Below, piece by piece: positions 35-6,670 of a stretch of DNA of 36,059 nucleotides. This DNA is from Balneolales bacterium (GTDB lineage Bacteria; Bacteroidota; Rhodothermia; Balneolales; Cyclonatronaceae): assembly GCA_022565805.1 (NCBI GenBank), contig JAIULZ010000029.1, positions 1-36,059 of the forward strand, read 5' to 3'. Within the stretch, counting starts at the first letter, position 1; every line of letters starts with the position of its first letter. The notes under the pieces are model-generated. The model had not been told where the DNA came from, searched no databases, and was given only the letters and a program-made list of their open reading frames with translations. The position numbers and the translations under genes were made by a program.

Positions 35-1024
35 TTAGGGGTCATCAGTTAGTTTTTCGAGATTTGAATCATTAAAGAATACTTCTTTGGGCGTTAAATA
101 TCCAAGTTTTTTTCGTGGTCGGTTGTTAAGTTTTTCGCAAATTTGAGCCAACTCTTTGGGTTGTACAAATCGAATATCCCTCTTTTTGGGAATATATTGA
201 CGCACAAGCTTATTTATCTGCTCAATTCTGGAGCTTTCGTTTGTCTGGTAGGGATGACAAAACCAAACTGTGGTGTTCAAATATTTGGCCGTAATCAGGT
301 GATCGGCAAATTCAACTCCGTTGTCGTTGGTCAACGAATAAACGCGGTGACGTACGTCTTTGAGCAGTTTACGGGTAGCGATGTGATTGTCACGCGCAGA
401 CTTGGAATGTACCTGTGCCAGCCAGCAGTAGCTTGATTTTCGGTCTGTGATGCTCTGTATGGCTCCTTTGTTTGCCGGTCCGACAATCGTATCCCGCTCA
501 AGGTCGCCGATTCGCTCTACGGCATCGACTTCTTTGGGTCGGTCGTCAATCCATCGCCTGTTTTTGATCAATTGACGCACTGTTTTGATCTTTTTTCGAG
601 GTTTGGGACGTTTACGTGCCGTTCTCAGGTGCTTGTAAAGGGTTCCGCCCTGGCGAGCATCCTCATAAATATACCGGTAAATGGTCATGTGGGAGACGGA
701 CATATCCGAGCCGTGTTCCAGCATCAACCGAGGCCCGATGGCAGCGGGTTCGAGATCCGTTTTGGATAAAAGGGTAAGTGATCGTTCTTTTAATAATCCC
801 TTAAACCGGTATGGAGTTCGTTTTTGGCAGCCCTGTTGCTCATAGCGGCGTTGAGCGGCTTCAGCGTCATACTGGTTATACCCACCTGACCGGCTAATTT
901 CACGGCGAATAGTGGTAGGGTCTCGCCCCAGTTGAGCGGCAATGTAAGGAATGGAATGGTTGAGTTGAATTAATCCATGAATACGGTATCTTTCGGTGTA
1001 GGTAATGTGCGTGTAGTTTTTCAT
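35..1024 (-). CDS. IS30-family transposase
   Basis: Encodes about 329 residues that would cut and join the ends of the surrounding element. The N-terminus (MKNYTHITYTERYRIHGL) is the IS30 helix-turn-helix region that binds the inverted repeats, followed by a second HTH-like stretch (IAAQLGRDPTTIRREI). The C-terminal RNase H-fold core shows the DDE triad: D in GDLERDTIVG, D in LTNDNGVEF, and E in SSRIEQINKLVRQYIPKK, the last matching the IS30 signature ending in NGLIRQY-P-K. I chose the ATG at 1024 because family members begin with such an MK-Y sequence. The open frame runs back to 1132, but that extension only translates the hairpin and the inverted repeat. No frameshift or stop is seen, so the enzyme appears functional. 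Confidence 0.93.
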   Translation of the reverse strand: MKNYTHITYTERYRIHGLIQLNHSIPYIAAQLGRDPTTIRREISRSGGYNQYDAEAAQRRYEQQGCQKRTPYRFKGLLKERSLTLLSKTDLEPAAIGPRLMLEHGSDMSVSHMTIYRYIYEDARQGGTLYKHLRTARKRPKPRKKIKTVRQLIKNRRWIDDRPKEVDAVERIGDLERDTIVGPANKGAIQSITDRKSSYCWLAQVHSKSARDNHIATRKLLKDVRHRVYSLTNDNGVEFADHLITAKYLNTTVWFCHPYQTNESSRIEQINKLVRQYIPKKRDIRFVQPKELAQICEKLNNRPRKKLGYLTPKEVFFNDSNLEKLTDDP

Positions 1025-1076
1025 GTGCTGGATTCTTTGGTCGGAAAAAAGCAGAAAGCTACGCAAACTTTCCGAA

Positions 1077-1104
1077 AATCCTTGGGGGCTCGCCCCCAAG
1101 GATT
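1077..1104. promoter_or_regulatory. GC-rich hairpin at the 5' end of the IS30 transposase transcript
   Basis: AATCCTTGGGGGC pairs with GCCCCCAAGGATT around a 2-base centre (13-bp stem). It lies upstream of the transposase start and just inside the right inverted repeat. Hairpins at this position in other insertion sequences block translation driven by transcripts entering from outside; that role here is inferred. There is no U-run, so it is not a typical terminator. Confidence 0.6.
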
Positions 1105-1117
1105 CATTTTTCCGCAG

Positions 1118-1137
1118 AATCGGGCACTTCAAATGTT
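1118..1137 (-). repeat. IS30 right terminal inverted repeat
   Basis: Exact reverse complement of 9-28, followed by AAT at 1138-1140, the right copy of the target duplication. A possible alternative upstream ATG of the transposase frame (1132) lies inside this repeat. Confidence 0.92.
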
Positions 1138-4285: not shown

Positions 4286-4633
4286 TTAATTTTTATTAAC
4301 TAAAGCGAGTAGATTGTCCGGCACATTTATTTTCATTCTAAGAACTTGCGCTGCATGAGTTTTACCTTGTGCATCAAGTTTAAGAGAAACGGTCCCACCT
4401 CCACCCAAACTTTCATTAAGGATAAAATTGAGTGCTCCAATATTAGGTAACTCATATCGCTCAACTTTACCTTGGCATACATGTTTCATATGCTCTTTTA
4501 CGCGCTCTGTGGTTAATTCTTTTACCAGGAAGGGATAAATTTCGGGATGACGAGCGATAATTCCGACATTGCTGCCATTTCCTTTATCGCCGCTTCTGCC
4601 GTGGGCAATTTCAAGAAGATGTACTTCTGCCAT
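4286..4633 (-). CDS. AtuA C-terminal-domain-like protein
   Basis: A 115-residue small protein beginning MAEVHLLEIAHGRSGDKGNGSNVGIIAR. That opening is typical of the ferredoxin-like C-terminal domain of AtuA/DUF1446 proteins found as a free-standing gene. The motif NFILNESLGGGGTVSLKLDAQGK is also characteristic. In acyclic terpene utilisation the domain accompanies AtuA; stand-alone versions are widespread with no settled reaction. No AtuA N-terminal partner is present here. It starts 42 bp after purM on the same strand and is probably co-transcribed. Family confident, role unknown. Confidence 0.78.
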   Translation of the reverse strand: MAEVHLLEIAHGRSGDKGNGSNVGIIARHPEIYPFLVKELTTERVKEHMKHVCQGKVERYELPNIGALNFILNESLGGGGTVSLKLDAQGKTHAAQVLRMKINVPDNLLALVNKN

Positions 4634-4675
4634 AATTTTTTTATAAATTTAAAATATAGTTACTGTTACAAATCG

Positions 4676-5683
4676 TCATTTAATATGGCCAATTTCAAAA
4701 TATGGCTCATTCATTTTATCGAGTGTCGAAGTTACTGATTTAACCGAATCTTTCGAAATAACTGCAATAAGCCCAATTCCCATATTAAACGCTTCGCGCA
4801 TGGATTCATCAGGTACATTTCCAATATCTTGAATAAGCGAAAAGATAGATGGTATATCCCAGCTATTCCAATTTATATGTAGTTTAAGATCCTTTGGTAT
4901 AATTCTTTTTGTATTTCCTTCGATTCCACCTCCTGTGATATGAGAAAATCCTTTTACGCCTTTTATAGCTTTAAGTTTTCTTATGATATGTAGATAAGAT
5001 CTATGTATTCTTAAAAGTTCTTCTCCAATCGTCTTATCAAGTACTTCCGGCTTATCGTTTATGCTAAACTTGTCAAAAAGAACTCTCCGTGCTAAAGAAT
5101 ATCCATTTGTATGAAGTCCGTTTGAAGGTATTCCAATAAGCACATCAGTAGATTTAATCTCTTTTCCGCTTATTAGATTATTTTCGTCTACAATTCCTAC
5201 TATAGTACCTGCAAGATCAAATTCACCAGTTTTATAAATGTCTGGCATTTCTGCAGTTTCCCCACCTATAAGAGCACAGTTGTTTTCTTTACAGGCAGTT
5301 GAAAATCCTTTTATGACATCAAAAGCAATTTTTTGATCAAGTTTTCCTGTAGAAAAATAGTCTAGAAAAAATAGAGGTTCAGCTCCGCAAACAGCAATGT
5401 CATTTACACAATGGTTAACTAGATCCTGGCCTACGGTATCGTATTTTTGGGCTTTAAAAGCTACAATAAGCTTGGTTCCTACACCATCTACGCTGCTTAC
5501 AAGCACAGGTTTTTTCCATTTTTTGAAGTCAAGACGAAATAAACCACCAAAGCCGCCAATATCACTTAATACCTCAACTCCATGTGTTTCGCGAACTATG
5601 TCTTTTATTGATGTAACAAGTTCTTCTCCGGCTTTAACATCTACACCGGCATCTTTGTAGGTGAATTTTTTTTTATCAGACAT
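4676..5683 (-). CDS. purM: Phosphoribosylformylglycinamidine cyclo-ligase
   Basis: 335 residues, the normal length for PurM. This cytoplasmic enzyme performs the fifth step of purine synthesis, closing the imidazole ring of AIR from FGAM with ATP. Recognisable PurM blocks are YKDAGVDVKAGEELV at the N-terminus, VSSVDGVGTKLIVAF (the glycine-rich nucleotide segment), GQDLVNHCVNDIAVCGAEPLFFLDYF, LIGGETAEMPDIY, LIGIPSNGLHTNGYSL and GFSHITGGGIEGNTKRI. The ATG at 5683 gives the usual start. No other pur gene is adjacent; the downstream partner is the AtuA-like gene. Upstream lies the DnaA-box-rich region, with dtd divergent beyond it. The coding sequence is AT-rich (a sampled 60-bp stretch is about one third G+C), unlike genes to the right. 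Confidence 0.97.
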   Translation of the reverse strand: MSDKKKFTYKDAGVDVKAGEELVTSIKDIVRETHGVEVLSDIGGFGGLFRLDFKKWKKPVLVSSVDGVGTKLIVAFKAQKYDTVGQDLVNHCVNDIAVCGAEPLFFLDYFSTGKLDQKIAFDVIKGFSTACKENNCALIGGETAEMPDIYKTGEFDLAGTIVGIVDENNLISGKEIKSTDVLIGIPSNGLHTNGYSLARRVLFDKFSINDKPEVLDKTIGEELLRIHRSYLHIIRKLKAIKGVKGFSHITGGGIEGNTKRIIPKDLKLHINWNSWDIPSIFSLIQDIGNVPDESMREAFNMGIGLIAVISKDSVKSVTSTLDKMNEPYFEIGHIK

Positions 5684-6217
5684 TATTGTATGTGCTTTCA
5701 GCTTAAGATTTTCAGATGCAGATTTTGCATCAAATAATTAGCAGCTACCTGGTTTTTCTCTTCCATTAATTTACAGCTCAATTTTTTAAAACTCTAAGCT
5801 GATATTATTCATTTTCTGAAAAGCTTTCCACATCCTCTATTATTAGTAGGTGGTAGAGAACAAGCAAAGTAGTAGTTTTAGTAGGCACTGTTGAAATGTG
5901 TATAAAATTGATATCCCCTTTATTTTTAACCCAACTGTGGATATGTTGAAAACATTGTGGATAAATACATGGCCTGATTTTATTACTCTTTAGCCTCTTA
6001 TAAACATGTTATACACCTTTATATTTTGTTATTCACTTGCCTTGTGGAGAACAATGTGATGAACGTTTCACAGGCTTATGATCTTGAAAACAGTGTGGGA
6101 AAGCCACAAAAAGGGGTTGAAAGCTTTTTATAACTTTTCTTGGAAAAACAGATTAATCACTTACCCACCGTAAGTAGCTACCTTTTCCACAAACTTATTA
6201 ACCAATTTTCTATAGTT
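5684..6217. other. Candidate chromosomal replication origin (oriC): DnaA-box cluster
   Basis: Non-coding 534-bp gap between divergent purM and dtd. Against the box TTWTNCACA I find three exact matches: 5897-5905 (minus), 5956-5964 (TGTGGATAA, minus) and 6183-6191 (plus). Six more sites have one mismatch: 5824-5832, 5936-5944, 6009-6017, 6029-6037, 6043-6051 and 6094-6102. The spaces are AT-rich (for example TATATTTTGTTATT at 6020-6033), suitable for unwinding. A random AT-rich stretch of this size should rarely contain even one exact box. Genes to the right are mainly rightward, as expected for a leading strand. No dnaA, dnaN or gidA lies in the window, so the call rests on the boxes. The ATG-less-likely upstream frame of dtd overlaps its right edge. 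Confidence 0.6.
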
Positions 6218-6670
6218 ATGAAACTTGTAATACAGCGAGTGAGCGAAGCAAAAGTAGAAATAGACGGGCGCATATCGGGTGCTATTGGCCCTGGTTTAAT
6301 GGTGCTTTTAGCTATTCATAAAAATGATGAAGAGGAGCAGCTAAAATGGCTGGCCAATAAACTGGTGAAGCTCAGAATTTTCCATGATGATGAAGGAAAG
6401 ATGAATCGTTCGGTTGCCGATACAGGTGGCGGTATTCTGGTAATATCTCAGTTTACCCTTTATGGAGATGCCCGAAAAGGAACCCGACCCGGTTTTACCG
6501 AGTCGGCACCACCCGAAAAAGCAGAAGCTTTATACGATGCATTCGTAGCATATGTAAAAACAATATTTTCGGGTAGCGTACAAACAGGTGAGTTTGCCGC
6601 AATGATGGATGTTTCTCTGATTAACAGCGGGCCGGTTACCATTATTCTTGAAAAGGAAAATGAAATCTGA
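6218..6670 (+). CDS. dtd: D-aminoacyl-tRNA deacylase
   Basis: 150 residues, the normal Dtd length, starting MKLVIQRVSEAKVEIDG. Dtd hydrolyses D-amino acids mischarged on tRNA (and Gly on tRNA-Ala), protecting translation. The signature blocks are GILVISQFTLYGDARKGTRPGFTESAPP, with the SQFTLYGD active-site motif, and the C-terminal GEFAAMMDVSLINSGPVTIILE, which contains the NSGPVT (cross-subunit Gly-Pro) motif. An in-frame ATG exists at 6140, but that extension lies in the DnaA-box region and has no family counterpart, so 6218 is chosen. The stop overlaps the start of the next gene by one base (TGATG), implying translational coupling. Confidence 0.95.
   Translation: MKLVIQRVSEAKVEIDGRISGAIGPGLMVLLAIHKNDEEEQLKWLANKLVKLRIFHDDEGKMNRSVADTGGGILVISQFTLYGDARKGTRPGFTESAPPEKAEALYDAFVAYVKTIFSGSVQTGEFAAMMDVSLINSGPVTIILEKENEI

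Follow-up and report, generated by a model that had tools for sequence, protein, structure and literature searches.

The DNA examined here (the window) is a 36,059 nt contig, C29 of a 290-contig draft genome of a Balneolales bacterium, and the region of interest is the gap between the divergently oriented purM and dtd genes. The names of both genes were confirmed, as the scores against TIGR00878 and TIGR00256 were well above the cut-offs, and the initial annotation was right to describe the DNA between them as AT-rich and non-coding, as it is 32% GC and gene-free. The plus-strand bias reported for the genes to the right of the gap was also seen, in approximately 11 of 15 long genes, close to the original figure of 12 of 16. 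The dnaA gene is on a separate contig (C14). A gene for an IS30-family transposase (bases 35-1132, minus strand) is found at the left edge of the contig, and this is probably the reason for the assembly break there.

The three exact matches to TTWTNCACA that had been claimed for the gap are all present, at bases 5897-5905 and 5956-5964 on the minus strand and 6183-6191 on the plus strand. Sites with a single mismatch were also found between bases 5824 and 6191, though there are nine, some of them overlapping, rather than six. Dinucleotide shuffles of the 534 bp gap (5,000 for exact sites and 1,000 for sites with no more than one mismatch) were used as the null. The shuffled sequences contained a mean of 0.135 exact sites, and three or more occurred with a probability of 0.0004. 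When one mismatch was allowed, 12 sites were observed versus a mean of 2.3 and a maximum of 8, and none of the 1,000 shuffles reached 12. The box density is therefore far above chance, as had been proposed. The gap is also the densest 400 bp interval in the 36 kb, with 12 sites compared to six in the next non-overlapping interval.

Organization of the purM-dtd intergenic region

The features identified in and around the gap are listed in Table 1.

Table 1. Features of the purM-dtd region, with positions as in the window
Feature	Position	Strand	Remarks
purM	4676..5683	-	TIGR00878; left neighbour, directed away from the proposed origin
purM-dtd intergenic region, proposed oriC	5684..6217	no strand	534 bp, 32% GC; skew switch in relatives
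Left-hand DnaA box CTTTCCACA	5824..5832	+	most relatives have TTTTCCACA; position ~360-390 bp upstream of dtd is conserved
Stretch between left box and DnaA-trios	5833..5869	no strand	AT-rich in most relatives (alignment)
DnaA-trios TAG TAG TTT TAG TAG	5870..5884	no strand	plus-strand reading (3'-GAT-5' motif); definition from PMC8287927
GCAC spacer linking trios to box pair	5885..5888	no strand	4 nt; sequence comparison
Tandem DnaA-box pair	5889..5905	-	core reads TGTTGAAATGTGTATAA; TTATACACA (5897-5905) and weak ATTTCAACA (5889-5897)
Second DnaA-box group	5936..5964	-	ATATCCACA (5936), TTTTCAACA (5944), TTATCCACA (5956)
Degenerate single-mismatch boxes	5998..6051		5998, 6009, 6029 (+), 6043 (-)
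Degenerate box TTTCCCACA	6094..6102	-	
dtd-proximal DnaA box TTTTCCACA	6183..6191	+	exact site; conserved in relatives
dtd (D-aminoacyl-tRNA deacylase)	6218..6670	+	TIGR00256; right neighbour, directed away from the proposed origin

A basal unwinding system (BUS) has been described for the oriC of Bacillus subtilis and occurs broadly in bacteria (PMC8287927, PMC6669920). It consists of a box pair, a spacer averaging ~4 bp and 3'-GAT-5' trinucleotides, known as DnaA-trios, and is recognized by a DnaA box or box pair 0-16 bp away from at least three consecutive 3'-NAN-5' trios (PMC8287927). The central part of the gap has the same arrangement as the B. subtilis BUS, namely tandem DnaA boxes followed by a short spacer, here 4 nt, and then 3'-GAT-5' trinucleotides. 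However, the second box of the pair is weak in the window (three mismatches to TTATCCACA), the run of four GAT trios is broken by a TTT, and the neighbouring gene is dtd, not dnaA. The DNA separating the left box from the trios is likely to be part of the unwinding element. The most unstable 50 bp of the gap is at base 5977; 256 of the 36,009 intervals in the 36 kb had lower values, and some intergenic stretches outside the gap are weaker still.

Conservation within the order

The gap was aligned with those of 25 relatives (26 gaps in total) drawn from several families of the order. A single order of elements was conserved: a TTTTCCACA box, an AT-rich stretch, TAG repeats, 4 nt, the tandem boxes TGTGGATATGTGGATAA, reverse boxes and the dtd-proximal box. 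The distances of the boxes are fixed with respect to dtd rather than purM, at ~360-390, 295-320 and 245-265 bp upstream of dtd, the last of these being the position of the second box group. In family f2 the distance between dtd and the start of purM is larger than in family f1, at ~950-1,160 bp, yet the spacing of the array from dtd is unchanged. The f2 loci (for example L096, L101 and L180) include extra sequence between purM and the box array, which is apparently a small minus-strand gene.

The box pair was found in the expected place in 37 of 40 gaps. The first trio is strong across the relatives, with each base conserved in ~80%, and the later trios are only loosely conserved. Hence the trios match the BUS well in several genomes, including some with four uninterrupted TAG (e.g. 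L106), and partially in others such as that of the window.

A 24-mer representing the core, TAGNNNNKGTKGAWWWGTKNANAA, was used to search 129 genomes of the order, with the reversed pattern as the control. The signature was found in 75 genomes, once in each, and the control produced two matches in total. As the signature was built from the 26 aligned gaps, those genomes are not independent of it, while the remaining genomes are. In 72 of the 75, the match was 281-351 bp upstream of dtd and on the same strand, and the linkage of dtd to the proposed origin is fixed through the order. The exceptions were G080 and G098, where the match is on a different contig from dtd, and G127, where it is at a contig end and dtd was not found. 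The match in G098 (C20:3983-4006) is a good one, and its separation from dtd may be due to a rearrangement around the origin or to the assembly. Among the inspected genomes that lack the exact signature, most have a variant at the same place. Conservation of the boxes in related genomes had been proposed as a check of the initial annotation, and both boxes and core have been retained through the order.

Strand-composition skew in complete genomes

The cumulative GC minimum of the window falls at base 6250 and the T-A maximum at base 6000, although so short a stretch (36 kb) is weak evidence by itself. Because the genome containing the window is a 290-contig draft, skew was computed on three complete, one-contig genomes that retain dtd, namely G093 from the same genus, and G003 and G041 from another family (f2). 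The core is at a considerable distance from dnaA in all three: measured round the circle, it is approximately 270 kb away in G093 (dnaA at 0.7 kb), 346 kb in G003 (dnaA at 1.30 Mb) and 448 kb in G041 (dnaA at 3.62 Mb).

In G093, the GC skew is mostly negative from ~2.3 Mb through dnaA to ~270 kb, where it turns. The cumulative minimum was at 265.8 kb using 5 kb steps (over an arc sampled between 4.10 Mb and 0.83 Mb, crossing zero) and at 268 kb using 1 kb steps (contiguous from 0 to 665 kb). The boxes orthologous to those in the gap map to 270 kb, with the core at bases 270,022-270,045. The minimum in this genome is flat (265-395 kb) and a T-A signal was absent. In G003 (800-1,120 kb examined), cumulative GC skew reaches its minimum and T-A skew its maximum in one and the same 1 kb bin, which ends at 956,000, and the core, at bases 955,634-955,657, falls within this bin. 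In G041 (200-420 kb examined), the core, at 320,212, lies just beyond the 1 kb bin with the T-A maximum, which ends at 320,000. The raw GC signal of this genome has a wide minimum, spanning 283-321 kb, and the third-codon-position skew changes sign between the samples at 260-280 kb and 310-330 kb.

A two-arm skew model was also used to compare an origin centred on the core with one centred on dnaA. The errors relative to the best fit were 1.008 versus 1.188 in G093, 1.000 versus 1.331 in G003 and 1.071 versus 1.655 in G041. The best-fitting origin coincided exactly with the core in G003; in G093 and G041, which have a flat optimum, it was 235 kb and 105 kb away from the core, respectively.

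Three properties of an oriC are thus found together at the purM-dtd gap: an intergenic cluster of DnaA boxes, conservation of position and boxes among relatives, and a skew switch at the locus and away from dnaA, seen in G093, in G003 and also, by T-A skew, in G041, where the GC minimum is broad. These data bear out the initial proposal of a chromosomal origin, and from these comparisons of sequence we consider that the gap is very probably oriC, with a probability of about 0.93.

The DnaA boxes close to dnaA were considered as an alternative. Three TTATCCACA sites are present in the 273 bp upstream of dnaA (C14:7090, 7255 and 7354; G000:C14:7090-7362, L227) and two are found beside dnaA in G093, as might be expected if replication began at dnaA and the purM-dtd cluster were a DnaA-titrating or regulatory site. 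Sites of the latter type, such as datA, DARS and DBT, are also intergenic DnaA-binding clusters located away from dnaA. However, the cumulative curve of G093 continues to fall for 270 kb past dnaA with no change of sign there, and the dnaA-centred model was the poorer one in each of the three complete genomes. Furthermore, the purM-dtd cluster is at the skew switch rather than off it, and neither this position nor a core made up of trios, spacer and box pair would be expected of a titration site; to our knowledge, datA, DARS and DBT lack an unwinding core and are not expected at skew extrema. An origin at dnaA is therefore quite improbable, and the sites upstream of dnaA probably serve in autoregulation of dnaA or represent a former origin. 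Another group of three TTWTCCACA sites is present in the same genome (C20:14380-14604), apparently within coding sequence.

The flat minima in G093 and G041 would permit the true origin to lie within tens of kb, with the purM-dtd cluster an accessory element, but two skews resolve the position to 1 kb in G003, T-A does so to ~1 kb in G041 and the genome-wide search found one site per genome, leaving very little room for this reading. DnaA is a known transcription factor and the cluster lies between two divergent genes, yet binding that controls purM and/or dtd transcription with no origin present is just as implausible, since the array stays at a fixed distance from dtd in f2 where the start of purM is farther away, and a promoter does not account for the skew switch.

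Proposed function and relationship to known origins

Binding of a DnaA oligomer to trios, melting and helicase loading are established steps in DnaA biology. At the purM-dtd gap, DnaA would bind the double-stranded boxes, and a DnaA-ATP oligomer would extend from the pair at 5889-5905 over the 4 nt spacer to reach the TAG trinucleotides at 5870-5884, where it would stretch open the adjacent AT-rich DNA. The opened DNA would then allow helicase loading, and two forks would leave in opposite directions, one co-directional with purM and the other with dtd. The remaining boxes (5824, 5936-5964 and 6183) may help to build and regulate the complex. It is conceivable, though unlikely, that the dtd neighbourhood itself aids initiation and so keeps the origin in place, for example if dtd transcription helps melting or reports growth. 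The cluster at dnaA would then be another site responsive to DnaA that has been kept, for instance an ancestral origin that has become a regulator.

An oriC in the purM-dtd gap would belong to a kind that is already known, because the oriC of Bacteroidetes is often distant from dnaA and DnaA-trios with box pairs are widespread in bacteria (PMC8287927). According to PMC4755523, which cites DoriC, a location far from dnaA is common in Bacteroidetes, and the initial annotation was correct that the absence of dnaA from the window is no argument against an origin. The locus resembles the origins described there, such as that of Prevotella intermedia, in having a box cluster at the GC-skew transition with dnaA distant, and differs from them in its dtd/purM context, which is fixed across one order. 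No description of such a context for oriC, or of its fixation across an order, was found in the literature searched. No oriC described in connection with purM, Balneolota or Balneolaceae was retrieved, and a search linking oriC to dtd led to genome papers on actinobacteria and a spirochaete, though DoriC may include predictions for complete members. The locus is a well-supported member of this known kind, and the dtd/purM context and its order-wide fixation are what appears to be new.

The analysis places a replication origin for an order in which no published one was found in the literature searched. As the anatomy and the position next to dtd are shared across the order, the 24-base signature, with its one match per genome, can locate the origin even in fragmented draft genomes. 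This supplies the correct zero point for analyses of gene dosage, strand bias, growth rate (from coverage ratios) and genome rotation; taking dnaA instead would introduce an error of ~270-450 kb in G093, G003 and G041.

The core signature outside the order

Upstream box clusters were found in none of the 21 dtd loci examined from a set of 80 that share <60% identity and come mainly from other phyla. The signature is rare outside the order, with matches in only six genomes when the phylum was sampled evenly. In all five examined (G141, G156, G280, G230 and G216), dtd was absent from the 8.5-10 kb around the signature, and in G141 and G156 it is located elsewhere in the genome. This indicates that dtd is a marker of the origin for this order but not for the phylum as a whole. 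Four of the five matches are inside or adjoining box-rich DNA.

Two of these, in G141 (contig C2, L245 bases 4761-4907) and G156 (contig C1, L246 bases 4569-4968), represent two other families of the class and include the trio-spacer-box-pair core in box-rich intergenic DNA. They are candidate origins with neighbours other than dtd. The G156 genome is complete, with the core at 2.394 Mb and dtd at 2.067 Mb, and a clear minimum at the core was absent in the 200 kb of contiguous skew available. In G280, which is more distantly related within the phylum, a box cluster including TAGTAGCTGTGGAAATGTGGATAA (contig C3, L247 bases 4448-4847) is a possible origin.
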